Source: Phormidesmis priestleyi Ana (GTDB taxonomy: Bacteria > Cyanobacteriota > Cyanobacteriia > Phormidesmidales > Phormidesmidaceae). From it: a stretch of 64,000 bases of DNA. Position numbers and translations under genes: made by a program. This document shows, piece after piece, positions 2,592 to 47,089 of the stretch (positions within the stretch are counted from its first letter, which is position 1; each line of letters begins with the position of its first letter). The notes below the pieces were generated by a model, which was not told where the DNA came from, ran no database searches, and saw only the letters and a list, made by a program, of their open reading frames with translations. The stretch spans positions 1-64,000 of the forward strand of contig LJZR01000002.1 of assembly GCA_001314865.1 (NCBI GenBank), read 5' to 3'.

Positions 2592-4463
2592 TCAAACAAT
2601 CGGATAGGACTTAAGACCGCTGGCTTCTAGTGGCAAAAACACCGTCCAAGTAGTGCCTTGGTTAGAGCGTTCGCGGACGGTAAGCTTGGCACCAAGGGCA
2701 TGAAACAGATTTTTGGTGGCTTCTAGGTTGAGGCTGAGGCCACCTGTTTCGGGTTGGAACATCAGGAGATGGCCAAGTGACTGAAGCGGCGGTGGTGAGC
2801 AGGAAAATGCGGCGTTGGGTGCTTTGGGATCTGCCTGGGATTGAAATTGCAGCTTGAGCTGTTCGCCCGCATGAAGGACATGCAGCTGAATATGGCTACC
2901 GGGAGAAACGCTGTGAGTGAACAGTTCTACTAACCCGGTGAGTACATGCTGGAGCATGGTGGGATCGCTAGCGACCATGGGCAGCTCAGACGGTAGCCCT
3001 ACTTCTAACGACAGATTGCGGCGGTGAGCAGCCTGCTGCCACTGAGGAATGGCTTCTTGGAATACCTGATGCAGAGCGATGCTCTGTAAGAGCGGCCTTT
3101 CCATTGGGCTCACGGGTGACTTCGGTGACTGGCTAGCTGTTTCTAGCTCTACGGCTTTAAAAATGAGGCTGAAGCGGTCAATTTGCTGGGTGCATTCACG
3201 GTCAATGCTCTGTAGGCGTTTGATCACCTGCGCATCGAGATCTTTGCGCTTGAGGAGCGATCGCGTGTAGGTGCGAATGGTGGTGAGCGGCGTGCGAATT
3301 TCATGAGCCATGGCCTTGAGCAACGCACTATCTGAAAAGGTCTCAGCTGCTTGTTTGACCTGTGTATGTGCAGCCGTTTTGATGGTGTTCCAACCCAGCT
3401 GATCTGAACCGATTGATGGAGTATTTGACCAGCTGTTTGCTTGGTCGTTTGCCTGATCGTTTGCCTGACCGTTCGATTGGCCAGTCAAACGGCCATTTGA
3501 CTGGCTGCTTAATTGGCCGTTTGACTGGCTATTTGACTGACTATTTGACTGACTATTTGATTGGCCAGTCGAGTAACCGTTCAAGCGACTTTCCGTGTCA
3601 TGACTGCCGTTTTGAATGGGATGTGTTTCGATGAACTGGTTGATGGATCGGTGATTAGAAATTGGTCTACAGGCGAGCATCCAGCGATTGAACTGGCTGA
3701 CGACACGGTAGTGCGGATCTTTTGGGGCAAATTTTTCAACCAGCGGATCGATGAATTCTAGCTGTTGGGGTCGAATGACTCGGATGCGCGATCGCAGCAG
3801 TCGCCAAACCGAATCGACCACCTGCGGCATAAAAGAAAATTGAAAACGCAGCTCATCGTCCGCATCTTTGCCCAGTACCAGTACCAGTGAAAACTGAGCA
3901 GTAAAGACCAGCGTAAACTGCTCCTGGGCGAGGGGATCGTCTTCGAGGAGGGGCAGCAGACGGGTGCTAAACGAGTGCTTTTTGTTGAGTTTTTTTTGAA
4001 AGAGTCGCCCGACGGGTGAGAGCGCTTGAAAAGAGGAGGCTAGCTGCTCTGAAGATTGGGGTACGAGTGTCCAGTTTGAAATGCGATCGCTGAGCTTGGC
4101 TTCGCTGTTAAAAGGAACGGGCCCAGAGAGGACCAGCGCCTGGGGAAACTGGCCAGAGGCTGCGGTCTTTTTGGCCTTAGCCGATTTGACTGGCTCGGTG
4201 CCTGCTGTTTGCGCATGAACATGCTGATAAAGCAGCTGCTCAAGGGCAGCGACTGCGCTTTGCCATTCCTGTTCGGCGCGTGTTCGCTTGGCTTCGGCCG
4301 GTAGTTGATCACTGACGATCGGGCAAGTATCAGTAACCTCAGCCGTTTGTCCGCCCTGGGAAAACTCTCCGAGTGCAACCAAGGCGCTAATAGTAGGTAA
4401 AAGCCGATCTGATACGCTCATAAGAGATATGAAAACGCTGGGTTGGTGACGCTTCCTTAACAC
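2592..4463 (-). CDS. Histidine kinase-like protein with degenerate ATPase domain
   Basis: Up to 623 residues. The N-terminal ~270 residues form an unrecognised, probably sensory region. A low-complexity Ser/Asn/Gln linker (repeats of QSNS) follows at ~300-350, then a HisKA domain with H-box AHEIRTPLTTIRTY at ~388. The C-terminal region has the layout of a HATPase_c domain but lacks an obvious N-box asparagine (GLVELFTHS instead of NLxxNAxKxS) and a DxGxG G1 box. It may therefore be a phosphoacceptor or scaffold without its own ATP binding. The GTG start at 4463 gives the longest form; ATG at 4421 (MSVSDRLLP) is an equally plausible start. It is divergent from the gene at 4526. No response regulator is adjacent. 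Confidence 0.75.
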   Translation of the reverse strand: MLRKRHQPSVFISLMSVSDRLLPTISALVALGEFSQGGQTAEVTDTCPIVSDQLPAEAKRTRAEQEWQSAVAALEQLLYQHVHAQTAGTEPVKSAKAKKTAASGQFPQALVLSGPVPFNSEAKLSDRISNWTLVPQSSEQLASSFQALSPVGRLFQKKLNKKHSFSTRLLPLLEDDPLAQEQFTLVFTAQFSLVLVLGKDADDELRFQFSFMPQVVDSVWRLLRSRIRVIRPQQLEFIDPLVEKFAPKDPHYRVVSQFNRWMLACRPISNHRSINQFIETHPIQNGSHDTESRLNGYSTGQSNSQSNSQSNSQSNGQLSSQSNGRLTGQSNGQANDQANDQANSWSNTPSIGSDQLGWNTIKTAAHTQVKQAAETFSDSALLKAMAHEIRTPLTTIRTYTRSLLKRKDLDAQVIKRLQSIDRECTQQIDRFSLIFKAVELETASQSPKSPVSPMERPLLQSIALHQVFQEAIPQWQQAAHRRNLSLEVGLPSELPMVASDPTMLQHVLTGLVELFTHSVSPGSHIQLHVLHAGEQLKLQFQSQADPKAPNAAFSCSPPPLQSLGHLLMFQPETGGLSLNLEATKNLFHALGAKLTVRERSNQGTTWTVFLPLEASGLKSYPIV

Positions 4464-8223: not shown

Positions 8224-10020
8224 ATGGCTGTTTCTACCCGTTCGAGACCTCGTCGCCGTCAGACTAGGGCGCCTAGTCCTCGTTCAACGCCTGAGCAAAT
8301 TCAAGATTTTAGACACAATTTGCCGCGTCTGCGTCTGATTAGTGTGTGGCTGTTTCTGTTGGTTGGCATGCTGGGCTTAGGGGCGCGGCTGGCCTATCTA
8401 CAGCTGTTTATTAATGATGAGCTGAAGCTAAGGGCAGAAGAACAGCAGGCGATTCAGTCGACGCCTAGAGCTTCTCGGCGGCAGATGATCGATTTGCAGG
8501 GCAACGTAGTGGCTATGGATCGGGTGTTGTACACGCTGTATGTGCATCCGATGCTGTTTAAGAAGCCTGAGGCGGAGATTGCCGAAGCGCTGAGTTCAGT
8601 GTTGGATTTGAGCCCGAGTAAGCTGACGCAGATGTTTACTGCCCAAGAGAGCGGCATTAAGCTAAGCACTGATATTTCTGAAGAGACCGCAAAACGCTTG
8701 CGGGCACTGCGGTTAGATGGCTTGGATCTGCTGCCTTCGCCGCAGCGGATGTATCCTCAAGGGGAGCTGTTTGCGCAGGTGACGGGCTATGTTGACCTAG
8801 AGGGTGCGCCCGGTGCAGGTGTAGAACTCGGCTATGAGTCGCAGCTGCTGTATGACGATCCGAAGGCGGGTGAGCCGACGCCTATGCAGCAGGTGACTCG
8901 GGATGACTTGCAGATGCAGTTAACCATTGACAGTCGTTTGCAGCGAATTGCTCAGGAGGGCTTGGCCGCGACGGTCGCTGAGTTCAATGCTAAGCGAGGC
9001 GCGCTGATTGTAATGGATAGCCGCAACGGCGAGATTGTCACGATGGCGATCGCACCCACTTATGATCCTAACGAGTATTACAACGCCAATATTGAGTACT
9101 TTAAGAACTGGGCGGTGAGTGATCTGTATGAGCCGGGGTCTACCTTTAAGCCAATTAATGTGGCGATCGCACTAGAAGAGGGTGTCATTAGCGCCACTGA
9201 GAGCATTAACGACGAGGGCCGCATTTTTGTAGATGGGTGGCCCATTCAAAACGTGGACTTTGACACGAGTGGCGCCCGTGGGGTGATGTCTATTACCGAT
9301 GTGATGCGCTACTCCAGTAACGTCGCTATGGTACGCATGATGCAAAGGTTGCCTCGTGGCGATTATTTTAGCTGGTTGCAAAAGCTGGGCTTGGGCGATG
9401 TCACTGGGGTTGATTTACCGGGTGAAAGCAGCGGGCAGATTAAAGAAAAAGAGCAGTTTGTAGGCGGTGAGATAGAAGCCGCGACAACGGCTTTTGGTCA
9501 GGGTTTTTCTTTGACGGTATTGCAGCTTGCTCAGCTTCATGCAACCTTGGCCAATGGTGGCAAGCTGGTGACGCCCCATGTGGTTCGCGGCCTGGTGAAT
9601 GCCCAAAATGAGCTGACCTGGAAGCCGGAACGGCCTACGCCAAAGCAGGTATTTTCGCCTGAGACCACTCGGCAGGTGCTGGCGATGATGAAAGCCGTGG
9701 TGGATGACGGTACGGGCTCGGCGGCAAAGGTTGAGGGCTATCAGATTGCTGGAAAAACCGGTACAGCGCAGAAGGTGACGGAATATGGAACCTATGGAGA
9801 CCAGCGGATTACCAGTTTTGTGAGTATTGCCCCGGTGAGTGATCCGCGCTACGTGGTGCTGGCGGTCATTGATGAGCCGCAGGGCGAAAATGCCTATGGC
9901 GGTACGGTGGCTGCGCCGTTGGTGAAAAAAATGCTGGAATCGTTGGTGGTGCTAGAGGGTGTTGCGCCTGATGGGGCGATCGCGCCAGCCGATGAGAAAG
10001 CCATCGAAGCCTTAGAATAG
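8224..10020 (+). CDS. ftsI: Penicillin-binding protein 2/3, septal peptidoglycan transpeptidase
   Basis: 598 residues. A basic cytoplasmic tail (RSRPRRRQTR) is followed by one membrane anchor (~40-60), the PBP dimerisation domain and the transpeptidase domain. All three active-site motifs are present: SxxK as STFK with Ser306, SxN as SSN at 364-366, and KTGT at 511-514. It crosslinks septal peptidoglycan with FtsW. It starts 3 bp after the ftsL-like gene and is surely in the same operon. Length and motif spacing fit class B PBPs, and no motif is damaged. Confidence 0.96.
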   Translation: MAVSTRSRPRRRQTRAPSPRSTPEQIQDFRHNLPRLRLISVWLFLLVGMLGLGARLAYLQLFINDELKLRAEEQQAIQSTPRASRRQMIDLQGNVVAMDRVLYTLYVHPMLFKKPEAEIAEALSSVLDLSPSKLTQMFTAQESGIKLSTDISEETAKRLRALRLDGLDLLPSPQRMYPQGELFAQVTGYVDLEGAPGAGVELGYESQLLYDDPKAGEPTPMQQVTRDDLQMQLTIDSRLQRIAQEGLAATVAEFNAKRGALIVMDSRNGEIVTMAIAPTYDPNEYYNANIEYFKNWAVSDLYEPGSTFKPINVAIALEEGVISATESINDEGRIFVDGWPIQNVDFDTSGARGVMSITDVMRYSSNVAMVRMMQRLPRGDYFSWLQKLGLGDVTGVDLPGESSGQIKEKEQFVGGEIEAATTAFGQGFSLTVLQLAQLHATLANGGKLVTPHVVRGLVNAQNELTWKPERPTPKQVFSPETTRQVLAMMKAVVDDGTGSAAKVEGYQIAGKTGTAQKVTEYGTYGDQRITSFVSIAPVSDPRYVVLAVIDEPQGENAYGGTVAAPLVKKMLESLVVLEGVAPDGAIAPADEKAIEALE

Positions 10021-11077: not shown

Positions 11078-12082
11078 CTACGAAAACTGACCTTCACAGG
11101 TTTCAACCGGAATCCTCGTGCCCGCATTAATGCGAAAGAGACTTTCCACATTCATCACCGAGCCATCGTAGCGAAGGTTGTTAACCGGTGTGCCGAGCTG
11201 TAGCACCTGTAGCGGGCCTAGGTAGGTTGTGCCATTTATCGTTGCAGGCTGGTCATTGGTATAGGCTTGCCCAGTAATGGTATCACCGCTAACGGTGCCG
11301 GTAATACATGCACCCGTTTCTCCATCAATATGGCCAAAGATGCCGGTTACTGCGTCGCCACGTTTGCGGAAGACGAATAGGTAGCCGCCATTGGCCAATA
11401 GCTCTTCGTCAGTAACGACTCGGACAGGATACTCAGCGGAGGTCATGCGGTAGTTGCCATCTGGTAAATCGGCGAGCGTTGGACTGGTGACTACAGGTGG
11501 GGCCGGTGGCGTCGGCGTTACGGGTGCTGGCGTTACTGGTGGCGTTACTGGCGCTGGCGTTACTGGCGTTGGCGTTACTGGCGTTGGCTGTGGAGTTGGC
11601 GTTGCGGCAATTGCGCATACCAGGCTGCCTCTAACGGGTGCAAAGCCACCGTTGTCTTCTAACGCTTCTACAGTCGTTTCGGTAAGGGTTGCGTAGTAAA
11701 TGGGGTTATCTGCAATCAGCTGAACGGCTTCGTCAAAAGAGAGATTGCGGAAGGTGAGGGTGCGGGCATCGTCCAGAAAGGCGGGCTCGGTGATGTCAGC
11801 CTCTGCCACTTCCACTGTGGCAGGATTTTGGGAATAGGTAAAAATGGTATCGCCTGCGATTTCTCGGACAGTGAGTGAGGCAGGCCCTAGCGGCGCGCCA
11901 CATTCAACAGTGGGTTCAGAATTTTGAGCCGCTACAGAGGGAGAGAAGATCGCAACAGAAAGAGGGGCCGCGATCACCGCTAGCGCCCATTTCATCTGTT
12001 TAGACTGTGACCTTGAGGATAATAACTTGGAAGAGCGTGACTCTGAAGAGCGTGACTTTGAGGCAATTAAAAAACGGTTCAT
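11078..12082 (-). CDS. Exported two-domain protein, family unknown (paralogue 1 of 4)
   Basis: ~334 residues from ATG 12082, preceded by AGGAA. A basic Ser-rich leader is followed by a signal peptide ending SVAAQ. Mature domain N: Cys near the start, LTVREIAGDTIFTYSQ, a TLTFRN strand, IADNPIYYATL, and a second Cys (LVCAI). A (PVTP)n linker of ~35 residues follows. Domain C: LADLPDGNYR, YLFVFRKRGDAVTG, GACITGTVSGDTITGQAY, ending FRINAGTRIP..TC. Both domains recur in the neighbours. I recognise no named family; a periplasmic or surface role is inferred from the signal peptide and possible disulfides. All four genes lie on the same strand in tandem. Confidence 0.72.
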   Translation of the reverse strand: MNRFLIASKSRSSESRSSKLLSSRSQSKQMKWALAVIAAPLSVAIFSPSVAAQNSEPTVECGAPLGPASLTVREIAGDTIFTYSQNPATVEVAEADITEPAFLDDARTLTFRNLSFDEAVQLIADNPIYYATLTETTVEALEDNGGFAPVRGSLVCAIAATPTPQPTPVTPTPVTPAPVTPPVTPAPVTPTPPAPPVVTSPTLADLPDGNYRMTSAEYPVRVVTDEELLANGGYLFVFRKRGDAVTGIFGHIDGETGACITGTVSGDTITGQAYTNDQPATINGTTYLGPLQVLQLGTPVNNLRYDGSVMNVESLFRINAGTRIPVETCEGQFS

Positions 12083-12212
12083 AATCGTAGTGTTCCTGAC
12101 TTGTGTAAATAACAGCGTTTGGATAGGAGCGTAAAAACGAATGAAACAAACCTTAAAAAATGAACAGACCAGAGAGCTGTAAGAAACAGGCAAATAGATA
12201 AAATACCGCTTT

Positions 12213-12301
12213 CCCTCACCCTAAATCCCTCTCCCGCAGAGAGAGAGACTTTGAATCTAGCTCCCTTCTCCCACAGGGAGAAGGGTTGGGGATGAGGGCC
12301 T
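12213..12301. repeat. REP-like long inverted repeat (MITE-like)
   Basis: The arms CCCTCACCCTAAATCCCTC... and ...GAAGGGTTGGGGATGAGGG are imperfect inverted repeats of ~23 bp. A second inner inverted repeat (CTTCTCCCACAGGGAGAAG) lies within. Elements of this wording occur in many copies in cyanobacterial and other bacterial genomes (from memory). It sits between two paralogues and could have served as a site for recombination there. It may also form a strong RNA hairpin downstream of the gene at 12343. Confidence 0.8.
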
Positions 12302-12342
12302 CAGTCATCATGAAGCAAGGACATTATCAAGGCGCACTTCCC

Positions 12343-13326
12343 CTAACAAGACTGGGGCGGCAAAACCGTTCCGGCATTGATACGTGAAAACGACTCTAAA
12401 TTCAACGTGACATTGCTAAACCTGTTGCCCATAGACTGGTTAGCAACAGTCAGGAAATCGCTATCAGGAACCGTCGCCTCAGTCCCAAAGAGTGCGCCTT
12501 GCCCTGTGACCACATTGCCTTCTATCGTTCCAGAGATGCAAATAGAACTGTCGGTTTCAGGATAGAAGAATTCGCCGACAACTTCATCACCGCTTTTGCG
12601 AAAGAGATACACAATTGACTCACTCTCTAAAAGCGCTTGAGTGTCAACCACGCTCAGGGGAAAATCGGCTGAGGCAAGGCGATAGTTACCGTCTGGCAAA
12701 TCGGCAAAGGTGGATTGAGGGGCCGGTGGTGTGGGTGTGGCGGCAACGCCGTTGTCTTCGCAGGTGAGCGTATCATTCACTTCGCTAAAGCCACTGGTGC
12801 CTAAAGATTCTACAGAGGTGCCTAGCAGCTCAGCGTAGTAAGTTGGATTGTTGACTACGCGCACTCTGGCTTCTTCAATCGGCGTGTTGAACAATGTGAG
12901 CGTCCGCTGACTGGCAATAGTGGCAGGCTCACTGGCCGCAGCATCTTCTTCAGCACCCTCTACACTGGCGGCTGTGCTGACGGGTGATGGAAACTGCTCG
13001 TATACAAAAACACTGTTGTTTTCAACTTGGCCAACGGTGATAAAAGCGCGCATACCCAGCGGATTGGGCACACCGCTTTCAGGATTGTAGGCGCAAACTG
13101 TATTGGCTGTCGCCGCGAGATCTGGATTCTGTGCGTTGGCCGGGGTTGATGCGATCGCAACAGAAAAAGGCACAAACGCAGCTGTCAGCATCCACTTTAT
13201 CTGCGATGGATTGATCCGTCGTTTGTTCTTTAGTTTGTTCTTTAGTTTGCTCTTTAATTCGCTCTTTAGTTCGCTCTTTAGCGGGTTCGCTTGGGGCTTT
13301 AGCAACGTTTGAAAACGAGAGAACAC
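12343..13326 (-). CDS. Exported two-domain protein, family unknown (paralogue 2 of 4)
   Basis: ~327 residues from GTG 13326, chosen because AGGAG lies 7 nt upstream; a longer TTG form from 13371 lacks this. The N-terminal leader has a striking Lys-Ser/Asn repeat (KSELKSELKSKLKNK), then a signal peptide ending STPANAQ. Domain N matches paralogue 1: Cys, FITVGQVENNSVFVYEQF, RTLTLFNTPIEEAR, NPTYYAELL, TCED. Domain C: FADLPDGNYRLAS, VYLFRKSGDEVVGEF, SICISGTIEGNVVTGQG, SFSRINAGTVLPPQSC. The inter-domain linker is short here. Function unknown. Confidence 0.72.
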   Translation of the reverse strand: MFSRFQTLLKPQANPLKSELKSELKSKLKNKLKNKRRINPSQIKWMLTAAFVPFSVAIASTPANAQNPDLAATANTVCAYNPESGVPNPLGMRAFITVGQVENNSVFVYEQFPSPVSTAASVEGAEEDAAASEPATIASQRTLTLFNTPIEEARVRVVNNPTYYAELLGTSVESLGTSGFSEVNDTLTCEDNGVAATPTPPAPQSTFADLPDGNYRLASADFPLSVVDTQALLESESIVYLFRKSGDEVVGEFFYPETDSSICISGTIEGNVVTGQGALFGTEATVPDSDFLTVANQSMGNRFSNVTLNLESFSRINAGTVLPPQSC

Positions 13327-13556
13327 TATGAAACTCCTCAGTGAAATACAGTAGACTACCCACACTTTCAAGGCGCTTGCGCCGAGCCTTGTATAGTCGC
13401 CAGCATCAGTGTTATCGGTATTTATACCGATGCTGGCACCATTATAGGGAGCAACCGGGCGTAGGCCGTTCCTCTCTGTAACCCTTCTTAATCAGAGTCT
13501 GAGCGCTACTGATACCGATTGGGCGGCAGTACAGCGCTTGAATTGAGGCGCTGGAT

Positions 13557-14666
13557 TTATCGGATGTCAAGCCGACTATCAGGATTAAGCAAAATGCTGT
13601 TAAAAGGCTCTATTTGCCGGAGAACAGCGCCTCCAATGAAGGCTGGATCAGTGAGTTCGGTGTAAAAAACAAATTTTCTGTACGCCTCGGTCGTGTCACC
13701 TGGCGTAAATACGACGGCATTATTAGCGATTCTTTCACAGCTAAGCTGCCGATCAATCACGCTAAAGCCTCTGCTGATGAGCGGACTGTTTAATGGCAGA
13801 CCCAAGAACCGAGCATATTGCTCGCGGTCGTTCACTAGCTCGCGGCGGGCTTGGGCTAGCGACCGATCGTACAAAATATAGGTGCGCTCGGCAATGACAG
13901 TTGGATAGGTGCGATCATCCGTCACAATGTTTGCAAACTGCTGATAGCGAAAGACGGTACTCTCTTGTGACCCTTCTGAAAATTCGGCGACTGTGATGAT
14001 GTCGCGATTCTCGATAGAAGAATCTGCAAAAGAAGCTGTAGAAGAAGCTGGCGAAGAATCTGCGCCATTGCTTAACCAATCTGTTCTAACAAAGCCAGGG
14101 CTGTAGTAGCAGGCTATAGAAGTGAGATCATCGTCGCTGATGAAAGAGGTTCTTGAAGAGAGATCAGCACGGATTCTTCGTTCTGGGCGGGTGGGTACTG
14201 GAAGTTGGCCTGCTGTTGGCGTTGGCAACTCTAGCGCCGATTGCTGAGTGAATCGATCAATGTCTTGTGGGGAGACATTGGGCAGCACGATGATGTCGGC
14301 TGGGGACGGCTCTAGAGTCGTAGTGGCTGGTACTGGCAAATCGAGCGGCGTCTGCTGGGTGAATCGATCAATGTCTTCTGGGGAGACGTTGGGCAGCACA
14401 ATGCGCTCAGCCGGGGGCGTTACTGATGTGACTGATCCAGTGATTTGAGCGCCAGTGACTTGAGCGCTAGTGACTTGGGCGGTGGCTTTGGGACTGTAGG
14501 TAGCGATCGCCAGCGAAAAAGCAAAAGCCGCAACGGCGCAGCCTTTCCTGCAAAAATTTGCCAACCCTGTCGCTGATGAAGACTGGGCTAAATGATCGGT
14601 TAAAGGATTGGTTAAACGACCGCTGAAATGGCTGGTCAAATGGCTGGTCAAATGGCTGTTAGACAT
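13557..14666 (-). CDS. Exported protein with N domain only (paralogue 3 of 4)
   Basis: 369 residues. The leader has HLTSHLTSHF-type repeats, then a hydrophobic segment ending SPKATAQ. Next comes an exact-looking internal duplication of VLPNVSPEDIDRFTQQ (twice, ~35 residues apart), absent from the other paralogues. The C-terminal half carries domain N (CYYSPGFV..., ITVAEFSEGSQESTVFRYQQF, ERTYILYDRSLAQARRELV, REQYARFLG, LSCERI). In place of domain C is an unrelated ~55-residue tail. Function unknown. The shared domain and the tandem position make descent from a common exported protein likely. Confidence 0.68.
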   Translation of the reverse strand: MSNSHLTSHLTSHFSGRLTNPLTDHLAQSSSATGLANFCRKGCAVAAFAFSLAIATYSPKATAQVTSAQVTGAQITGSVTSVTPPAERIVLPNVSPEDIDRFTQQTPLDLPVPATTTLEPSPADIIVLPNVSPQDIDRFTQQSALELPTPTAGQLPVPTRPERRIRADLSSRTSFISDDDLTSIACYYSPGFVRTDWLSNGADSSPASSTASFADSSIENRDIITVAEFSEGSQESTVFRYQQFANIVTDDRTYPTVIAERTYILYDRSLAQARRELVNDREQYARFLGLPLNSPLISRGFSVIDRQLSCERIANNAVVFTPGDTTEAYRKFVFYTELTDPAFIGGAVLRQIEPFNSILLNPDSRLDIR

Positions 14667-14765
14667 GGTGTATTAAAGGATAAGGGGGCTTATCCTGCTG
14701 ATGTATCGATCATCACCCATGCTTTTATTATACGTAGTTTGTACTGAACTGCCTGAGCGGCTCGT

Positions 14766-16133
14766 TTAACCTGCCTGACAGCTAGTGGGCGGTAGGCTAG
14801 TGCCCGCATTGATCGGTGAAAAGTTAGATAGGTCTAAAACGGCGTTGTCATAGTAGAGTCCTTGGGGCGTGCGGGTTGTCCCGCGAACTTTGAGGGCTCC
14901 GTTGGCATAGGATGCAAATGATGCGTCAAGGCTGCGATCGCCCCCCGGCAAACTATCAGACAAACTGGCAGACAAACTGGCAGGCAAACTGGCCTGAAAA
15001 CTGACAGTCCCGTCATGGGGATAGGCCGCGCCAGAAATCACATTGCCGCTGACGATGCCAGTAACGCAAATACCGGAACGGCCAATGCGCGGCAGCAAAT
15101 CACCCGTAACAGTGTTGCCCTGCTTTTTAAGGATAAAAACAGCGCTGCCGAGCTGTTGAAGCTCAGCATCTGTATAAACCCGATCTTCAGCTGTGCCTGA
15201 AATGTAACGGTAGTTGCCATCGGGCATGGAAGCGAGCGTATTGATCGCATCGCCATCAAACGGCGTAGGGTTTAGCTGCGTGGGTGTGAAGTTAAAAGGA
15301 TCAAGAGCACTCGCACCATTAACCGAGGGAATGCCCGGTTGGCCCTGTTCGCTAGTTAAGGCAGGCGTTTCGCTGGGGGTAATGCTTGGCAGCTGCGGCG
15401 GTATCGCTGCTGGGGTAAGGGTTGATTCCGCTGCTGGGGCGGCTGTTGGGGCGGCTATTGGGGCGGCTGTTGGGGCGGCTGCTGGTTCTCCCGCTGATTC
15501 TGGTACGGTTTCTAGCACCGATTCTGCCGTCGGTTCTAGGACTGATTCTGCTGCGGGTTCTGCTGCTGGCAGGATGGTTGGCAAAGGTGCCGGTACGGCT
15601 GCTGGCAAGAGAATGGGCGCGGGGGTCGGAGGGCTATTGATAAAAGGGGTAGAAGGGGCGCTTAAATCAGGCAGCTCGGACAGGCGTAAGGAATGAGCAG
15701 GCAAGCTGGCAACAAGTGTTTCACCGCTGACAGCTAAGCAGTTGTCGCGAGCAGATCTTGCAGCTTGACTACTATTGGAGGGCGCGGCGCTGGTGCCATT
15801 GCCATAGGGATTGGCTCGCAGCAACTGGCGCACGGTGGCAAGGCGATTTTCTAACGCAGAGACAACGCTGCTGCCAAAGACTGCGGATCGTTCTTGCTCA
15901 GATGTTACGAGCGCGCCTGTTGAAGTTGAGATAGGCTGGGCAGTGGTGCCTGGGGCTGTAGCCGCCCCGGTAGTCGCATTCTCCCTTGATTCGCAGTAGA
16001 TGCCGTAAGTTTCGAAGTCAGTGTTTGCCCTGGGGACTTGGGATGCCGCAAGTAGCAACGGTGAAGCTAAGAGCGTCATCGGCAGTGTCATGGGTAGCGC
16101 GGATCGCCATATGGCTTGAATTCTTAACGGCAT
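14766..16133 (-). CDS. Exported protein with C domain only (paralogue 4 of 4)
   Basis: ~455 residues from ATG 16133 (TTG 16142 is also in frame). The signal peptide is hydrophobic with repeats (LPMTLPMTLLASPLLLAAS). The N-terminal part differs from the other three but keeps cysteine spacing (GIYCESRE, DNCLAVSG). A long Ala/Pro/Glu/Ser linker (~170-270) is built of AAPTAAPIAAPTAAP and ESVLEPT-type repeats. Domain C is intact: LASMPDGNYRYIS, AVFILKKQGNTVTGDL, GICVTGIVSGNVISGAAY, NFSPINAGTSLPPTSC. It contains a Leu/Ser/Ala repeat insert (LPASLSASLSDSL). Function unknown. Confidence 0.7.
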   Translation of the reverse strand: MPLRIQAIWRSALPMTLPMTLLASPLLLAASQVPRANTDFETYGIYCESRENATTGAATAPGTTAQPISTSTGALVTSEQERSAVFGSSVVSALENRLATVRQLLRANPYGNGTSAAPSNSSQAARSARDNCLAVSGETLVASLPAHSLRLSELPDLSAPSTPFINSPPTPAPILLPAAVPAPLPTILPAAEPAAESVLEPTAESVLETVPESAGEPAAAPTAAPIAAPTAAPAAESTLTPAAIPPQLPSITPSETPALTSEQGQPGIPSVNGASALDPFNFTPTQLNPTPFDGDAINTLASMPDGNYRYISGTAEDRVYTDAELQQLGSAVFILKKQGNTVTGDLLPRIGRSGICVTGIVSGNVISGAAYPHDGTVSFQASLPASLSASLSDSLPGGDRSLDASFASYANGALKVRGTTRTPQGLYYDNAVLDLSNFSPINAGTSLPPTSCQAG

Positions 16134-16317
16134 CTTAAGCAAGGGATCTACAAAACTTCATATATAACCGCTCTAATTATTCCACAATGTCTATCGACAT
16201 GAATAGTTCAATCTAAGCATTATTACCGAACTGCTGCCGATTAAATTCGCCTATCGCTATATATATAAAGGCTTGAGCGATTTTTTATGCACGATAGTTT
16301 TATTTAGATGCCCTGAT

Positions 16318-18462
16318 TTAGATATCTAATTTAAACTTCATGAGTTCGTAGAAAGCGCGAGACAGCTCGCGTCGGGTGAGTTTTTGATTGTCTATTGGAA
16401 TGTTGGCGATCGCCTGTGTGTAGGCTTGTGGCATAGCGGCCTTAATTAAAAAAGACAGCTGTTTGCGCGTGATCATATCGTTTGGGGCAAATCGTTTGCC
16501 GCCTACACCGGCAATGATGCCTTGCGCCTTGAGCGTTTCAATATTGCTGTAGGCCCAATGCGCGCCGGGGAGCACATCGCTAAAGCTAGGGCTGGCAGGG
16601 CTGACTTTTTCTAGCTCTAATAGGCTCACGAGCGCAGTGGAAACGACGGCCCGTGAGACATTGGCATAGGGCCGAAAGTGCAGGTCGTTTGCGTTTTCGC
16701 TGCGGATAATGCCGGTTGCTGCCATTACCTGAATGGGCTCAAAGTCGGGATCGTCATGGCCCACATCGTCAAACCAAAAAATGGGGATGCCGTTGCGAGC
16801 CATGAAGCCTTGCAGCTTTCGCAGTAGCGGTAGGGTTTCGACAATGCGGCGTGGGCTTTCGCCCGTCCAAGCGCAGAAAACGGCGAGGAATCCGCTGGCT
16901 TCACCAATGGCCCATTCGACGGGATGCATTCGGTAGGCAGCGTTGGTGATATGGGTGGTGCCGATGCTTTTGGCAGAGAGAATGAGGCCGTCTGTGGTCA
17001 TGGGCACTAGGGACTTAGCGGGCAGTGAAAAGGGTAGGGCGGTTACATCTTTGCCTTTGGGCGTAATATGGCCCGCTACGAGGTTGCCATGGAGGTCGAG
17101 ATAGTGATACTGACCAACGCCGACGCTGTCGTCAAAGCAGCGAGCGCGGGCTTGATTCGGGAAAAAGCTCTCAGCGACATCTTCGTGACGAATGGTTGTC
17201 AGGGCAATGCCTCGACGGGCTTCGCGAATGTAGGGCTCTAGGGCAATGCCATCGGCGCTCCAAGTGAGGTCGCCTCGGGTTTTAAGGTCGGGGACGCCGT
17301 GGGTTTGTAAATAGTGGATGTAGGCTTGGGCGCGATCGCGTGCCCGCTGAATTAAAACCTGGCGTTCTGCCCGGCTAACGCCGATTAAATGCCCAAAGCG
17401 AAAGTCATTGCCGCAGCACTCTCCTTTTTCGGGATGGGGTGAGGTGCCCCAGTTGATCACCGCAATATCCCCAATGCTGATGGTTTTGGGACTGAGCGAT
17501 CGCCGAAAAATTCGCCGGTAGCGAAAGATGCCGTAAGGCTCAAAGAAATGGCGTCTTTGCCAAGCATTGGAGCGTTTGAGCCAATAGTCGCCCGTAAACT
17601 CGTAGGGATTGAGCCAATAGTCGTGACCATAGCCAGCCGGTGCAGGCACCCGTTTACCCTGGCCCGGCGCTGTGTGCTCAACGACGATATTAAAGGTAAA
17701 TGACTGCTGGCATTGGGGAATGGCGTGATCCGGCAAAATCGCCTCGCCCGTATCGTTGCGGGCCTCTTGCCCGACTCGTGAAGGCAGCTGCGCCAGCTCT
17801 AGCAAATCACCAAAGTCAGTGGCTTCTAGTGTGATGGGCGCGTTAACTGTGAAATGAAAGGCCGTGCCAGTACGCTGAAACTTGACGCCCGTGACTCGCT
17901 GTTGCTCTCCGGGTGTGTTGGTTAAGAACACTTCAACCGGCTCACTGTTGGGCACTAGGCGCAGCAGCCCAGATTCTAAGTAGGGAATCAGCCGCTCATT
18001 GAGCGCGATCGCTGAGACGACCGGCGTAGTGGTGATTGGGCAGACCCAAGCGCCGCCTGGATTTTGCTGTAATCTGCCCTCCACTGGCTGAAGCTGTCGC
18101 TGCCGCGCTCTAAACCAGCGCTGACTTTTAGAGATAGCAAATTTTTCGCCCTCTACGGTGCTAAAGCTCTGGCTTTGCTTGAGCAGGTCGCCATCGTCTG
18201 AAGCGGGCAGCCCTTGGGCGGTAAACTGGCCGCCGACCATGGCATGGCTTTGCACCAGACACACATCAACATTCATGCTAAGGGCTGTGAGCGCTGCGGA
18301 GTAGGCTGCGGTAGAGCCCCCGACGACCAAAATGGAGCAAGTTAGGGTACTGCCGTCGCTTGGTTGGGTAAACGCATTGGGCGAGAAAATGCCGTTGCTT
18401 TGGCTGATGGGGCTCATCGCAGTACCAGAGAAAATGAATGGGTATCTATGGGTATCTATCAA
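16318..18462 (-). CDS. FAD-dependent oxidoreductase fused to an S-layer homology domain
   Basis: 714 residues; ATG 18417 (MSPISQ) is an alternative start. Residues ~40-75 have the dinucleotide-binding pattern ILVVGGSTAAYSAALTAL, and the body resembles the FAD-dependent oxidoreductase family (COG/Pfam FAD_oxidored) found in exported or surface enzymes. The last ~110 residues contain one clear SLH repeat (FSDVLPGAHWAYSNIETLKAQGI split by W-A-Y, then RFAPNDMITRKQLSFLI) and a second partial one. SLH domains tether proteins to the cell wall or outer envelope. There is no canonical signal peptide at the N-terminus, so how it would be exported is unclear. Substrate unknown. Confidence 0.78.
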   Translation of the reverse strand: MIDTHRYPFIFSGTAMSPISQSNGIFSPNAFTQPSDGSTLTCSILVVGGSTAAYSAALTALSMNVDVCLVQSHAMVGGQFTAQGLPASDDGDLLKQSQSFSTVEGEKFAISKSQRWFRARQRQLQPVEGRLQQNPGGAWVCPITTTPVVSAIALNERLIPYLESGLLRLVPNSEPVEVFLTNTPGEQQRVTGVKFQRTGTAFHFTVNAPITLEATDFGDLLELAQLPSRVGQEARNDTGEAILPDHAIPQCQQSFTFNIVVEHTAPGQGKRVPAPAGYGHDYWLNPYEFTGDYWLKRSNAWQRRHFFEPYGIFRYRRIFRRSLSPKTISIGDIAVINWGTSPHPEKGECCGNDFRFGHLIGVSRAERQVLIQRARDRAQAYIHYLQTHGVPDLKTRGDLTWSADGIALEPYIREARRGIALTTIRHEDVAESFFPNQARARCFDDSVGVGQYHYLDLHGNLVAGHITPKGKDVTALPFSLPAKSLVPMTTDGLILSAKSIGTTHITNAAYRMHPVEWAIGEASGFLAVFCAWTGESPRRIVETLPLLRKLQGFMARNGIPIFWFDDVGHDDPDFEPIQVMAATGIIRSENANDLHFRPYANVSRAVVSTALVSLLELEKVSPASPSFSDVLPGAHWAYSNIETLKAQGIIAGVGGKRFAPNDMITRKQLSFLIKAAMPQAYTQAIANIPIDNQKLTRRELSRAFYELMKFKLDI

Positions 18463-20134: not shown

Positions 20135-21306
20135 TCGTCTTCCCACACTTCAAAGGCGTCTACATCAATCGGTTCGGTGGGTTCTGATGCCTTAGACTGT
20201 TTGAACTTATCTAGCGTTTGGCCGAAGGTTTGGCCGAGCGATCGCCCCAGTGACGTTTTCTTGAATCTCTCTTCTAGGCGCTTATTGCCAATTTGCGCCT
20301 GCGCTTGTTCTTTAGCCTTTTGCAATCGTTCTTGCATTTGCTGCTTGACCTGCTCTGTTTTGCTTTGCAGCTGCTCAGCGATATCGGGCAAAGAATCGCC
20401 CTCGCCCCAGTTTTGCTGGCTGTTCTGGCGGCTGTTTTGGCGGTTGTCTTGATAGGCGTCTTGAGGGGCGAACTGCTCATCGGTAAACTGCTTGGCTCGT
20501 TGCTTTACTTGCTCGGTAAGCCTGCCTGCAAACGACTGTCCTTTGTGCAGCAGTTCATTAAAATCGGTCGGCATTTCGGGCAGTTGCTCGGGTCGCCACG
20601 CGGGAAGGCGGCTAGGCGCTCGGTTGGGCTCAGCGAGAATCGTCAGCGGCTGCGCGTAAGGCTGGGCCTGTTGGGCGTCTTCCTCGGCGATCATCATGCG
20701 TTTGCGACCGGCACTAATAATGGCTTGAGGGGCGATCGCATACACCGTTACCGTTTTTTCTAGCGGCGTTTCAGCTGTCGATTCGGCTGTCGATTCGGCT
20801 ATTGATTCGGCTGCCGCTTCAGTTGCGGATTCGGTTGCAGATTCAGCGGTCGATTCGGCTGCCGCTTCAGTTGCGGATTCCAAACGCGCAAACAAATATT
20901 GCTGAACCTCACCAGTGGCCTGATCGAAGCACAGATCTACAATGCGACCGATATGATCGCCGCCATCTGTCCACACTTCTAGGCTAGTCATATTTTGGGC
21001 GGCGGCTAGTGGCGACTCGTTGGCTGATGCGATCGCCGCTGTCGTCTCAGTGTGAATCACAATGCTGTCTCGCCCAATTTTCACAACTTGCGCCCAGCTG
21101 ATCGTTTGCTGGCGAGCGAGCAATCCGACTGATTTGTAAACCAATCCGGCAATTTGGTGGGAAGGCGCAGCCGCTCCTGTGGAGAATCGCTTGATATCTA
21201 CCAGCAAATGCTCCACACTACCCACCGCTTCTGCGGTTTCATAGGCCATTAGCTCTCGGCCTATCAGCTCGCCCTGGCGAATAATCGCTGTGTCCACACT
21301 AGCCAC
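20131..21306 (-). CDS. PRC-barrel domain protein
   Basis: 391 residues. The N-terminal ~85 residues (IIRQGELIGRELMAYETAEAVGSVEHLLVD...) and a second segment (~125-190, TSLEVWTDGGDHIGRIVDLCFD) are PRC-barrel-like. Such barrels occur in photosynthetic reaction-centre H subunits and RimM. Between and after them lie an Ala/Glu/Ser/Thr repeat (ATEAAAESTAESATES) and a Gln/Lys-rich, coiled-coil-like C-terminus (~290-370) with NRQNSRQNSQQN repeats. It starts with GTG. In cyanobacteria such proteins are often thylakoid or stress associated, but nothing here fixes a function. It is convergent with the TPR gene. Confidence 0.75.
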   Translation of the reverse strand: MASVDTAIIRQGELIGRELMAYETAEAVGSVEHLLVDIKRFSTGAAAPSHQIAGLVYKSVGLLARQQTISWAQVVKIGRDSIVIHTETTAAIASANESPLAAAQNMTSLEVWTDGGDHIGRIVDLCFDQATGEVQQYLFARLESATEAAAESTAESATESATEAAAESIAESTAESTAETPLEKTVTVYAIAPQAIISAGRKRMMIAEEDAQQAQPYAQPLTILAEPNRAPSRLPAWRPEQLPEMPTDFNELLHKGQSFAGRLTEQVKQRAKQFTDEQFAPQDAYQDNRQNSRQNSQQNWGEGDSLPDIAEQLQSKTEQVKQQMQERLQKAKEQAQAQIGNKRLEERFKKTSLGRSLGQTFGQTLDKFKQSKASEPTEPIDVDAFEVWEDD

Positions 21307-22122: not shown

Positions 22123-25100
22123 ATGGCTAGCTCACCTATTTCGATCCATCCTCAAACTGGCTTGGGTCAGCAAGCACAGTGGCAGTTTTGGATTGATCGA
22201 GGGGGCACCTTTACCGATATTGTTGCGCAGCTGCCAGATGGTTCTACTCGGGTTCACAAGCTGCTGTCTGAAAATCCGCAGCGTTACCTAGATGCGCCTA
22301 TTCAAGGCATCCGAGAGATGATGGGCGTGGAAGCGGGCCAGCCGATTCCCGCTGCTCAAATTTCGGTTGTCAAAATGGGTACGACCGTTGCCACGAATGC
22401 ACTGTTAGAAAGAAAGGGCGATCGCACCGTATTTATCACCACCCAGGGCTTTGGCGACGGCCTGCGCATTGGCTACCAAAATCGGCCCGATATTTTTGCT
22501 CGCAAAATTGTGCTGCCCGATATGCTGTACGAGCAAGTGATAGAAGTGAATGAGCGCGTAACCGCAGAGGGCACGGTGCTACAGTCTATTACCCCGACGG
22601 TAGAACAACAGCTTTTGCAAGACTTACAAAAGGCTTATGACAGTGGTATTCGAGCCTGTGCGATCGCTTTTATCCATGGCTATCGCTATCCTCCTCATGA
22701 GCAGCAGACTCGCGCGATCGCTCAGCAGGTGGGCTTTACCCAAATCTCTGTTTCTCACGAAGTGAGTCCCCTCATTAAATGGGTGAGCAGAGGAGATACC
22801 ACGGTTGTTGATGCATATTTATCGCCGCTGCTACGCCGCTATGTAGACAGAATTGAAAAGGCTTTGGGTTCAGAGTCTGCTGAATCCTATGCAGACAACA
22901 CTTCAGAATCTGTTGTTCCGCAATTGTTGTTTATGCAGTCTAACGGGGGGCTCACGCCTGCTCAGTGCTTTCAGGGTAAGGACAGTATTCTTTCTGGCCC
23001 TGCTGGCGGTATTGTTGGCGCAGTGCAAACCAGTCGGGCAGCTGGCTTCAACAAAATCATCACATTCGACATGGGCGGCACGTCAACCGATGTTGCTCAC
23101 TTTAACGATACGACGGTCCATGACACGACGCCCAATGACACGACGATCAACGACACGACGCTCTCTGCGCCTGCCTATGAGCGCGTGTTTGAAACCGAGG
23201 TCGCGGGTGTGCGGATGCGATCGCCCATGATGGCAATTCATACAGTCGCAGCAGGGGGTGGATCTATCCTGGCGTTTGATGGCGATCGCTATCGAGTTGG
23301 CCCCGAGTCGGCAGGGGCAAGCCCTGGCCCGGCCTGCTATCGCAACGGTGGGCCGCTCACCGTGACAGACTGCAATGTGATGGTCGGCAAAATTCAGCCC
23401 CAGTTTTTTCCTCAGGTGTTTGGCCCTAACGGAAACCAACCGCTGGATCAAGGCATTGTGCAGGCACAGTTTGCTGAATTAGCGAAGGCGGTTTTTGCCG
23501 CTACTTGCAAAGAACAGCGGCCTGAGCAAATTGCAGAGGGCTTTTTGCATATTGCCATTGACAACATGGCCAATGCGATTAAAAAAATATCGGTGCAGCG
23601 AGGCTACGATGTGAGCGACTATACGCTGTGTTGCTTTGGCGCAGCGGGCGGGCAACATGCCTGTCGCTTGGCCGAAAGTTTGGGAATGAAGACTGTTTTA
23701 ATTCATCCTTATGCAGGTGTGCTTTCGGCCTATGGTATGGGTCTAGCCGATAGGAGAGTGCTCAAGGAAATGTCGGTAGAAATGGCGTTGGATATTGAGG
23801 CGATCGCACCCATCACTGAGCAGGTAAGGACGCTGAGCCAGCGGGCGATCGCTGAGCTGAGGGCTCAGGGCGATCGCGATATTGATACGGTCGAAACTCT
23901 GTGCCAGCTTCACGTACGCTATGCCGGAACAGATTCAACTATTGCCGTGGACTTTGTGCAAAATCTTGTATCTGAGGATATTTCTGCTGAGGATGCTTCT
24001 GCTGAGGATGTTTCTGCTGAGGATGTCTCTTCTGATAGGTTGTCTGCTGGGGCGATCGCGCAACAAGTCCGCCAACAATTTGAGGCTCGCTATCAGCAGC
24101 AATATGGCATCACGCTGCCCGGTAAAGACTTAGTAGTCGCGACCATTACCGCTGAGGCAATTGGTAAAACGCAGCTGCCTCAGCAGCGAACGGCGCCAGC
24201 GTCAGGTGAGAGAGCTAAGGAAATTGCGAGAGTCTCTTTGTTTTCGGCAAACCAGTGGCACGATACGCCTGTTTTTGAGCGACAGCAGCTATCGGCAGGT
24301 CAGCAGCTGATCGGCCCAGCCATTGTGCTAGAGCCAACTGGCACCAACATCATTGAGCCAGGTTGGGCTGCTGAAATGAGTGAGCGGGGTGATCTGCTGC
24401 TCAGGCAACAGGCAATAGAATCTCGAACTGTTATGGCCGAGGTTGCGGCAATAGGATCTGCTATGACAGGATCTGCTATAACAGGATCTGCTATGACAGA
24501 AGAAAGCCCGGAAAGTGTCCCAGACCCTGTAAAACTAGAGATTTTTAATAACTTGTTTCAGGCGAGCGCCGAGCAAATGGGTTTCACGCTACAAAACACC
24601 AGCTCTTCGGTCAATATTAAAGAGCGCCTAGACTTTTCTTGCGCTATTTTTGACGGCAGCGGTCAGCTGGTTGCCAATGCGCCGCATATTCCAGTGCATT
24701 TAGGCTCTATGGGAGAAAGCGTACAGGCTCTCCTGAACGATCACTTGAACGATTCTTTGGACGAGCTGCGAACCACTCAAATCAGAGAATTTCAGCCGGG
24801 CGATGTGTTTATTTCTAACAATCCTTACAACGGCGGTACGCACCTGCCTGATATCACCGCCATTACGCCTGTTTTTATACAAGGCGAATCGGCAGAGAAT
24901 ACATTAGATCAAATAGATCAGAAAGATGAGAGTAAATCATCACAGAACACAACGAAAAAACCTTTGTTTTTTGTTGCTTCGCGGGGGCACCATGCTGATA
25001 TCGGCGGCATCACACCTGGTTCTATGCCGCCTAATAGCACTCATCTCGATCAAGAAGGTATTTTGTTTGATAACTTTTTGCTCGTTGAAAAAGGAGACTT

Positions 25101-26238
25101 AAAAGCAGAAGCGCTCAGGCAGCACCTTACAAAAGCCCCTTACCCGGCCCGCAATCCTGATCAGAACCTAGCTGACCTACAGGCGCAGATCGCCGCAAAC
25201 AACAAAGGTGTGTTAGAACTCCAAAAAATGGTGCAGCAGTACGGCCTTAGCACCGTGCAAGCCTACATGCAGCATGTGCAAGACAACGCTGAGCAAGCCG
25301 TTCGCAAAGTCATCGCTCAGCTCTGTGCGCTTAATCCCTCATCTACTCATCAATGGGAAGTCCCTATGGACTGTGGCGCAACTATCCGGGTGTCTATCAC
25401 TCTCAACTCTCCCAATAATCTGGCCCATAATCCTACCGATACTCTGGCCGATACTCTGACCGAAAACAGTGCCATTATCGACTTTACAAACACGTCTACC
25501 CAGCAGCCCAATAACTTTAATGCGCCGCTGGCCGTATGCAAAGCCGCCGTTCTCTATGTTTTTCGTACCCTAGTAGACTCTCCCATTCCGCTCAATGCGG
25601 GCTGCCTCAAACCGCTAGATATCCGAGTCCCCGTTGGATCTATGCTCAATCCTACCTACCCAGCGGCTGTTGTTGCCGGTAATGTAGAAACCTCTCAAGC
25701 GGTTACCGACGCGCTATATGGTGCCCTGGGCATTTTAGCCGCTTCCCAAGGCACCATGAACAACTTCACCTTTGGCAACGATCAATACCAATATTACGAA
25801 ACCATTTGCGGAGGCAGTGGCGCAGGTGTAGATTTTGCTGGCCATGGCTTTTGTGGAACCGACGCGGTGCAAACCCATATGACTAACTCCAGACTCACCG
25901 ATCCAGAAATCTTAGAGCTACGATTTCCCGTTTTGCTTAAAGAATTCTCTATTCGCCAGCAAAGTGGTGGTCAAGGGCAGTATGTAGGTGGCAATGGCGT
26001 TGTTAGGCGTCTGTGCTTTCGCGAGGCGATGACCGCTAATTTGCTGTCGGGGCGACGAGTGACGGTGCCCTTTGGGTTAGCTGGCGGCGAGGCGGGAAGG
26101 GCCGGATGTGCGATCGCTCAATATGCCGATGGCTCTTCTCAATGGCTAGACGCTACGGCGACAGTTGCGATGCAGCCGGGCGATGAAATAGTGATAGAAA
26201 CGCCGGGTGGGGGTAGCTATGGAAAAATATTCCCATAA
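22123..26238 (+). CDS. oplAH: 5-oxoprolinase (ATP-hydrolysing), HyuA-HyuB fusion
   Basis: 1371 residues. It converts 5-oxo-L-proline to L-glutamate using ATP, recycling pyroglutamate from glutathione and protein turnover. The hydantoinase A/oxoprolinase part (~1-750) starts with FWIDRGGTFTDIVAQ (phosphate-binding) and has ITFDMGGTSTDVAHF and GAAGGQHACRLAE. The hydantoinase B part (~795-1371) has FSCAIFDGSGQLVANAPHIPVHLGSM, VFISNNPYNGGTHLPDIT and the glycine-rich end. AAGGGG lies upstream of ATG 22123. Linker repeats (SAEDASAEDVSAEDVSS; GSAMTGSAITGSAM) and an NDTT repeat inside the HyuA part are unusual for the family. The gene is monocistronic. Confidence 0.95.
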   Translation: MASSPISIHPQTGLGQQAQWQFWIDRGGTFTDIVAQLPDGSTRVHKLLSENPQRYLDAPIQGIREMMGVEAGQPIPAAQISVVKMGTTVATNALLERKGDRTVFITTQGFGDGLRIGYQNRPDIFARKIVLPDMLYEQVIEVNERVTAEGTVLQSITPTVEQQLLQDLQKAYDSGIRACAIAFIHGYRYPPHEQQTRAIAQQVGFTQISVSHEVSPLIKWVSRGDTTVVDAYLSPLLRRYVDRIEKALGSESAESYADNTSESVVPQLLFMQSNGGLTPAQCFQGKDSILSGPAGGIVGAVQTSRAAGFNKIITFDMGGTSTDVAHFNDTTVHDTTPNDTTINDTTLSAPAYERVFETEVAGVRMRSPMMAIHTVAAGGGSILAFDGDRYRVGPESAGASPGPACYRNGGPLTVTDCNVMVGKIQPQFFPQVFGPNGNQPLDQGIVQAQFAELAKAVFAATCKEQRPEQIAEGFLHIAIDNMANAIKKISVQRGYDVSDYTLCCFGAAGGQHACRLAESLGMKTVLIHPYAGVLSAYGMGLADRRVLKEMSVEMALDIEAIAPITEQVRTLSQRAIAELRAQGDRDIDTVETLCQLHVRYAGTDSTIAVDFVQNLVSEDISAEDASAEDVSAEDVSSDRLSAGAIAQQVRQQFEARYQQQYGITLPGKDLVVATITAEAIGKTQLPQQRTAPASGERAKEIARVSLFSANQWHDTPVFERQQLSAGQQLIGPAIVLEPTGTNIIEPGWAAEMSERGDLLLRQQAIESRTVMAEVAAIGSAMTGSAITGSAMTEESPESVPDPVKLEIFNNLFQASAEQMGFTLQNTSSSVNIKERLDFSCAIFDGSGQLVANAPHIPVHLGSMGESVQALLNDHLNDSLDELRTTQIREFQPGDVFISNNPYNGGTHLPDITAITPVFIQGESAENTLDQIDQKDESKSSQNTTKKPLFFVASRGHHADIGGITPGSMPPNSTHLDQEGILFDNFLLVEKGDLKAEALRQHLTKAPYPARNPDQNLADLQAQIAANNKGVLELQKMVQQYGLSTVQAYMQHVQDNAEQAVRKVIAQLCALNPSSTHQWEVPMDCGATIRVSITLNSPNNLAHNPTDTLADTLTENSAIIDFTNTSTQQPNNFNAPLAVCKAAVLYVFRTLVDSPIPLNAGCLKPLDIRVPVGSMLNPTYPAAVVAGNVETSQAVTDALYGALGILAASQGTMNNFTFGNDQYQYYETICGGSGAGVDFAGHGFCGTDAVQTHMTNSRLTDPEILELRFPVLLKEFSIRQQSGGQGQYVGGNGVVRRLCFREAMTANLLSGRRVTVPFGLAGGEAGRAGCAIAQYADGSSQWLDATATVAMQPGDEIVIETPGGGSYGKIFP

Positions 26239-46847: not shown

Positions 46848-47089
46848 AGCCCACGTTAAATCTTTCGACGAGTACGTCATCCTGGTAAGTGACGTCAAAT
46901 CTAAGAAGAATGAGCTAAGTAAGCGGCTTTCATACAATGCTTGAGATCTTAAATGGGCTCTATTCTCCTAACCCAACGATGCTAGGAAAGTTCAAGGTGC
47001 TAGGCCGCAATTCCTTTTGCTGTCCACCGTCGTACATCAGCAGATGTGAGGTTTGCTGACGGTTTGGGTGGCGTCGCCGCTAGCCGATC

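Follow-up and report, generated by a model that had tools for sequence, protein, structure and literature searches.

The described proteins that come closest to the family reported here are the avidin/streptavidin-type and calycin barrels (rhizavidin, AimA, TbpB and the haemophilin domains), which gave the top structural rows for the predicted model of one of its two domains, named C. Lipocalins carry a GxW motif on their first strand, and the CYTH, or triphosphate tunnel, enzymes, to which the second domain, named N, will be compared, carry an ExExK motif. Much of what cyanobacteria expose or secrete lacks annotation. A bacterial immunomodulatory protein whose domains are lipocalin-like is the subject of one paper (PMC6219842). 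Here we describe an array of four genes, p1 to p4, in a stretch of 64,000 nucleotides (the window; contig LJZR01000002.1, positions 1 to 64,000) of Phormidesmis priestleyi Ana, the genome assembly of which comprises 5.9 Mb in 136 contigs. We consider it likely that this array arose through old duplications of an ancestor carrying both domains (N+C), followed by decay or loss of domains.

The four open reading frames (ORFs) are arranged in tandem on the minus strand (16142-11078), and their order of transcription in the ORF listing is p4, p3, p2, p1. From the ORFs, blastp and hidden Markov model (HMM) domain matches, p1 (11078..12193) and p2 (12343..13371, start putative) were read as N+C proteins, p3 (13557..14666) as N without C and p4 (14766..16142) as C with a probable decayed N. 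The pairwise blastp alignment of p1 and p2 spans both domains (E 9e-48), those of p4 with p1 (E 7e-21) and p2 (E 1e-17) cover the C domain only, and that of p2 with p3 (E 4e-9) the N domain only. Because of these E-values within the array, the layout N+C (p1), N+C (p2), N (p3) and C (p4) is, as judged by alignment, far beyond chance, and the composition of two N+C proteins, one N and one C proposed in a preliminary description of this DNA is thus borne out.

Seven genomes of the genus were compared, one per species, including that of the window (the six others are named G342 to G347). In the C tree, p1 pairs with the copy of G345 (support 100/96), p2 with those of G342 and G346 (93/88), and p4 with p4-like proteins of congeners (100/99), the latter within a clade to which seven N+C proteins from another genus also belong (99/95). 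Approximately unbiased (AU) tests on C rejected both p1+p2 and p2+G345 (p 0.002 each), two groupings that lose equal likelihood and perhaps correspond to the same constrained tree. Since the C tree pairs p1 with G345 and p1+p2 is rejected, the p1-p2 duplication seems to predate one or more of the splits within the genus. The two copies also differ in which domain resembles the N+C gene of G345: p1 shares with it 73% identity in domain C (11090..11470) and 38% in N, whereas p2 shares 60% in N and 36% in C, a contrast that partly reflects orthology.

The N domains of the array have evolved at unequal rates. End branches in the N tree were 2.77 for p1 (11609..11929; E 7.8e-48 to a profile that includes its own row), 2.23 for p3 (13731..14057) and 0.31 for p2 (12754..13113), the shortest of the three; in the C tree, the end branch of p2 (12346..12702) was 0.88. 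In rate tests, the N domain of p3 was faster than that of p2 with all five outgroups, and that of p1 with three of the five (p 0.0015, 0.0013 and 0.048). In p3, a search for domain C found no remnant of it in the tail of the gene or in the gap between p3 and p2 (best E 0.12).

The front of p4 is probably a decayed N domain (15738..15995, from Cys50 to Cys135), as indicated by alignment, HMMER, a shuffle test and the positions of the cysteines. Compared with the N profile by hhalign, it scored 23.0, above the maximum of 21.3 reached by 150 column shuffles, and a Cys, a Glu, an Arg, an N-x-Y and a second Cys are invariant in four rows (those of the window and of three congeners). The preliminary description had spoken of shuffled domains, with unrelated parts filling the gaps. 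For p4, the gap would rather hold what is left of N, and an N+C ancestor with subsequent decay or loss explains the whole array better, covering the data without any exchange of domains.

Several observations weigh against this history and set its limits. The bootstrap support of the C tree is unsettled; in a smaller C tree the placement of p2 was open, while p1+G345 stood at 89/93. Resolution of the N tree is poor, with 4 of 21 branches starred, the placement of its long rows is uncertain, and AU tests on N rejected nothing (p1+G345 p 0.2, p1+p2 0.27, p2+G345 0.26); no incongruence between N and C trees was shown by these tests. With the two remaining outgroups, the N domain of p1 was not significantly faster than that of p2 (p 0.58 and 0.13), and the C domain of p2 was not significantly faster than that of p1 with any of five (p 0.056 to 0.48). 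Reciprocal decay of p1 and p2, for which significance was reached with three of five outgroups on the N side and none on the C side, is therefore only half shown at the level of substitution rates. A general rule by which a lone N decays is counter-indicated, because the N-only gene of G342 was not faster than its N+C gene with any of five outgroups (p 0.26 to 1.0). It should be noted that HMMER was marginal for the front of p4, with a best E of 0.005 in a four-sequence search and 0.05 for the window copy.

The number and the place of the genes vary within the genus, from none to four genes in the seven genomes. The window genome has all four at the locus, which is bounded by two markers, a penicillin-binding protein gene and an oxidoreductase gene. 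G342 has three next to the oxidoreductase (p4-like, N+C and N only), and its penicillin-binding protein, which lies on another contig, has none beside it; G346 has two (p4-like and N+C) between both markers. In G345, one N+C gene lies beside the penicillin-binding protein and a p4-like gene, broken within domain C (L147, 6812-7490), lies by the oxidoreductase ~214 kb away. A single p4-like gene, interrupted by the contig start, was found beside the penicillin-binding protein in G343. G347 has none beside either marker, and G344 has none beside the penicillin-binding protein and lacks a close match to the oxidoreductase; both carry at another site a C protein of the p1/p2 clade, the front of which is unmatched by the N profile. 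Some of these assemblies are fragmented, which makes absences less sure than presences. Copy gain and loss at this site are real on this comparison of copy number in relatives.

Beyond the genus, we monitored the occurrence of each domain in cyanobacterial genomes, with a threshold of E<=0.001. Domain C was present in 26 of 386 genomes sampled across the phylum (25/386 with a smaller profile and 15/292 with a three-sequence profile) and, within the taxonomic family, in 33 of 63. N was rarer (3 of 386 and 18 of 63, respectively). Carriers include Myxacorys almedinensis, a metagenome-assembled genome of Oculatellaceae, and plasmids of Gloeothece citriformis PCC 7424 and Acaryochloris 'Moss Beach'; on the Gloeothece plasmid, a 540-residue protein ending in C (L120, 1840-3462) directly follows a gene with a CHAT domain. 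The window genome itself encodes two further C proteins elsewhere, one with a Cys domain ahead of C (C63) and one with C alone (C33).

The retrieved loci, which were lacking for some genome matches, yielded 78 distinct family proteins: 16 with N+C, 8 with N without C and 54 with C without N. Among these 54, one to three Cys domains of ~78 residues precede C in 13 (L072, L033, L040 and others), a related C-terminal extension follows it in 8 (one incomplete), one is a fusion of LprI and C, two have another front (L065, L067), 17 are short C proteins, one is broken, 7 are divergent and 5 are p4-like (one broken and one ended by a contig edge). C is thus, as far as domain matches tell, a widespread cyanobacterial module that occurs alone or fused to N, to the Cys domain, to LprI or to the C-terminal extension.

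We also compared the genes around the family, by blastp clustering of 20 loci of 7.7 to 13 kb from which the cluster of the family itself was left out. In total, 36 neighbour clusters spanned at least two of the loci, and 33 of them were confined to one taxonomic family; of the three that crossed families, one was found at 8 of the 20 loci (an example is response-regulator-like) and two were pairs. At three N-only loci from the window genome's own taxonomic family (L176, L177 and L178), N adjoins the same gene, threonine-aldolase-like by eye, from which no functional hint was drawn; the listings of L177 and L178 lack the N gene, larger overlapping frames having been retained instead.

The anatomy of the domains is clear. 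Their core motifs are kept across relatives in the alignments, and those given in the preliminary description hold as a consensus, although p1 has YSQNP for QF and ACITG for IC. Cysteines of domain C were counted in an alignment of 48 of 70 C domains (44 from the set of 54 without N and 4 from the set of 16 with N+C; excluded were L014, which has a long insert, 12 N+C proteins and 9 C domains that were partial or divergent). Columns 57 and 180 are filled by Cys in 48/48 and 47/48 rows; at columns 10 and 31, Cys occupies both positions in 24 rows and neither in the other 24. The pattern of these columns is as expected of disulphides, which we infer for C. In N, all 24 rows have Cys at column 124 and 22 have it at column 7, the rows of p1 and p3 being trimmed or aligned past the first Cys. 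Beyond the N-terminal region, cysteines were found at residues 98, 193, 296 and 366 of p1, 93, 204, 278 and 342 of p2, 186 and 310 of p3, and 50, 135, 359 and 455 of p4. This amounts to one pair per domain: two pairs in p1, p2 and p4 (the decayed N of p4 counted) and one in p3.

All four proteins are probably exported, to judge from their N-termini. A hydrophobic stretch lies within the first 100 residues of each, and an AxA-like site followed by Q was seen by eye in each. For example, the stretch of p1 with its AxA-like site, a likely signal peptide (11927..11998, bounds by eye), has a hydropathy maximum of 2.24 at residue 70; the listed start of p1 is TTG, the first in-frame ATG being at residue 38. 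Against this, the strongest hydrophobic stretch of p2 sits right at its listed TTG start, which is putative, and in p4, the first in-frame ATG of which is at 16133, a linker stretch at residue 177 is more hydrophobic than the N-terminal one (1.78 vs 1.65). The signal peptides that the earlier statement gave to all four are therefore candidates: each protein has its hydrophobic stretch, the starts of p1 and p2 are uncertain, and the p4 stretch is not the strongest of its protein.

Profile searches with each domain separately, as had been suggested, were run, and neither N nor C hit a characterised family above a cut-off. No match above cut-off was found for N or C when p1 to p4 were searched against Pfam, NCBIfam, PADLOC and PHROGs, or the relatives against Pfam and NCBIfam (two of them also against PHROGs). 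LprI was the sole Pfam family above cut-off among 27 relatives scanned, fused ahead of C in one of them (L010, PF07007, E 2.7e-18). Rows below threshold were not retained: SteA-like_C for p2 (16.7 bits vs a cut-off of 26.4), the OAA-family lectin PF17882 in L054 alone (14.3 bits vs 20) and a weak phage portal row (E 0.005) in one N protein. No Pfam row at E<=1 was obtained for p1, p3 or p4, the Rfam scan gave no match, and a sequence-profile search of the PDB gave none either (best E 0.42 for C and 0.68 for N). In phage and plasmid records p2 was unmatched, and a lone C protein had two plasmid matches, in Gloeothece citriformis PCC 7424 and Acaryochloris sp. 'Moss Beach', both annotated as 'hypothetical protein'. 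In the literature records, of which parts were accessible, nothing named the N or C domains or their motif string, and nothing joined cyanobacteria with LprI or with avidin-like barrels. The view that the family is uncharacterised, held in the preliminary description, agrees with these searches of curated libraries and the PDB, and N and C are by profile comparison two so far unnamed domain families.

Structure prediction, likewise suggested beforehand, was carried out for C and for the N+C part of p2. The AlphaFold model of C (48 sequences) had a mean predicted local distance difference test (pLDDT) of 91.0 and a predicted template modelling score (pTM) of 0.84, with strands nearly throughout; that of p2 N+C (24 sequences) had a pLDDT of 87.3 and a pTM of 0.53, with five strands and helices in N and eight strands in C. 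In a second-look structural alignment of the C model, avidins came top, with rhizavidin at Z 5.1 (82 aligned, root-mean-square deviation (rmsd) 4.7), and the bacterial surface barrel TbpB followed at Z 4.5 (89 aligned, rmsd 5.3). In the N+C model, the C part matched AimA (PDB 6b7l; Z 5.2, 85 aligned, rmsd 3.6) and wilavidin (Z 5.0), and the N part gave triphosphate-tunnel-type rows, best 3sy3 (Z 5.2, 88 aligned, rmsd 4.9); the fold of these rows is presumably that named CYTH, and we take the lipocalin-like immunomodulatory-protein paper mentioned above to be the AimA paper. These models weakly suggest that C may be an avidin/calycin-like barrel. What speaks against it is that Foldseek found no match in the PDB at E<=0.001 for either model, that a Z below 8 may reflect just a common arrangement, and that 'barrel' was read from the strand order and the listed structural neighbours rather than from coordinates. 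A viral structure library gave nothing at E<=0.001 for the C model. As for a lipocalin assignment, the first strand of C reads (L)PDGNYR-like by eye and lacks GxW; a GRW stands in one row, further along and off the first strand.

Overall, the explanation that we put forward, with chances that we judge to be about even, is that p1 to p4 are four old paralogues on an exported N+C plan and serve as secreted binding proteins. An N+C ancestor would have been duplicated, N would have decayed or diverged in p1, p3 and p4, C would have been lost from p3, and p2 would have kept N best. The proteins would be secreted past the inner membrane, each domain folding around a disulphide. C, read as an avidin/calycin-like barrel, might bind a small molecule, a sugar or a protein partner outside the cell, and N with the linker might be an accessory or a second binding part. 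That the module serves in binding (capture or adhesion) rather than as an enzyme is a tentative proposal, somewhat short of evenly probable, for which the functional hints are limited to the LprI fusion and the weak barrel matches. No enzyme family matched N or C in the curated library scans of p1 to p4 and relatives, and the clustering of the 20 loci, which showed no conserved functional partner among the neighbours, counts against the proposal. A bolder variant, in which the paralogues specialise by domain and act in trans through duplication, degeneration and complementation (p1 and p4 supplying C, p2 and p3 supplying N), around a new avidin/calycin-like barrel family of cyanobacteria, seems to us rather improbable.

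Other roles have to be weighed against secreted binding. If C or N+C blocked a secreted or invading hydrolase, the fusion of one C to LprI, which Pfam names a lysozyme inhibitor, and the small size of a domain with paired Cys would be accounted for; this is the only such fusion among the 78 proteins, however, and N and C match no inhibitor family, which leaves an inhibitor module quite doubtful. The array could also provide a structural component of the sheath, the biofilm matrix or the cell envelope, without a discrete ligand and with linkers and repeats as spacers. The export-type N-termini, the Pro/Thr-rich linkers and the oxidoreductase with an SLH domain encoded upstream on the same strand are consistent with such a role, which is nevertheless unlikely given that each listed protein has a single C and no more than one N, if either, and that the curated library scans of p1 to p4 showed no anchor domain. 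Finally, the genes may be dying under relaxed constraint, on their way out as in G344 and G347. The absence of any copy at the site in two of the seven genomes, the broken p4-like gene of G345 and the fast N domains of p3 and probably p1 point in that direction, but all four frames are open and retain their Cys pairs, and core motifs are conserved across relatives, which makes this improbable as well.

The preliminary description had further seen in the array an active site of duplication and recombination, perhaps for surface variation. In such a locus, recombination would diversify the copies and so help the cell to evade phages or predators. The number of copies at this one site, which ranges so widely in the genus, would fit, as would the repeat content, no stretch of equal length in the window being richer in repeats: tandem repeats make up 11.0% of it, compared to 5.0% of the remaining window, and of 236 sliding windows five were equal (these may overlap the array) and none higher. 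Repeats were seen in the linkers of p1 (Pro/Thr/Val, 11486..11605, 15-bp period, bounds by eye) and p4 (Ala/Pro-rich, 15243..15650, from repeat scans with bounds by eye), and, in the tandem-repeat scan, within domain C of p4 (14775..15230), with a 12-base period at ~14949-15007. However, period-12 repeats occur throughout the window, in and between genes (29 of the 98 Tandem Repeats Finder rows, e.g., 3424-3567, 20770-20861 and 63147-63195), so the repeats are partly a habit of the genome. The top-scoring repeat of the window lies outside the array, at 47089-47243, in a minus-strand ORF (7.4 copies of a 21-base unit; counted in units of 63 bases, it scores 247).

Active recombination is unsupported because the copies share no long DNA identity: the longest blastn match between different array genes was 27 bases at 85%, and a repeat search found a 32-base stretch at 78% common to p1, p2 and p4. 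The strongest blastn match, 70 bases at 87%, belongs to a duplication inside p3 (14223..14419; two copies 111 bases apart, 83% identity over 86 bases), which is, by DNA identity, the only recent-looking one. The low identity of p1 and p2 (43% each) and p4 (36%) to their counterparts in G346 could likewise be taken as a sign of diversification, but neighbouring genes are similarly diverged in G346 (TPR 42%, PRC 49% and a 215-residue protein 50%); the penicillin-binding protein stands at 74% and acetolactate synthase at 84%. Although at the low end of these identities, the array is thus not singled out by them as hypervariable. With the duplication being old, as indicated by the rejection of p1+p2 on C, and with no high-identity tracts seen between copies, surface variation finds no specific support and is very improbable.

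The array is flanked on one side by the penicillin-binding transpeptidase (8224..10020, plus strand, downstream), followed by msrB, and on the other by the flavin adenine dinucleotide (FAD)-dependent oxidoreductase with its SLH domain (16318..18462, minus strand, upstream); both were assigned by library scan and synteny and served as the site markers. In G346, two overlapping frames take the place of a single one for the FAD oxidoreductase next to the array (L058, 8750-10896). Between p2 and p1 lies a dispersed repeat without assigned strand (12195..12300), found whole or in part at 13 places of the genome, including this one, at >=78% identity. Promoter and terminator scans gave 9 sites vs 5.2 expected and 12 vs 8.1, respectively, and were not used. 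Elsewhere in the window, one ORF of 1371 residues (22123-26238) carries hydantoinase A and B domains of the 5-oxoprolinase type.

Two unnamed domain families with a clear anatomy can thus be curated, and C appears as a mobile module in at least four fused settings. At this bounded locus, the congeners would show a two-domain family in the course of duplicating and shedding domains, and its function would be relevant to what cyanobacteria expose or secrete.

Compared with the known systems, C differs from the avidins in that there is no sequence match, the structural Z being only ~5, and no avidin Pfam row appeared in p1 to p4 or in the 27 relatives scanned. N resembles the CYTH, or triphosphate tunnel, enzymes in weak structural rows, but it consists of five strands with helices, and ExExK is missing from its alignments by eye. 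LprI (PF07007) precedes C in the one relative, while none of p1 to p4 carries it. N+C proteins of Myxacorys almedinensis (L027) and Oculatellaceae cyanobacterium Prado106 (L028) have both domains, in the order found in the array. The Myxacorys N+C gene is a single copy among other neighbours, and the genome G289, which encodes an equal protein, has one N and one C match genome-wide.

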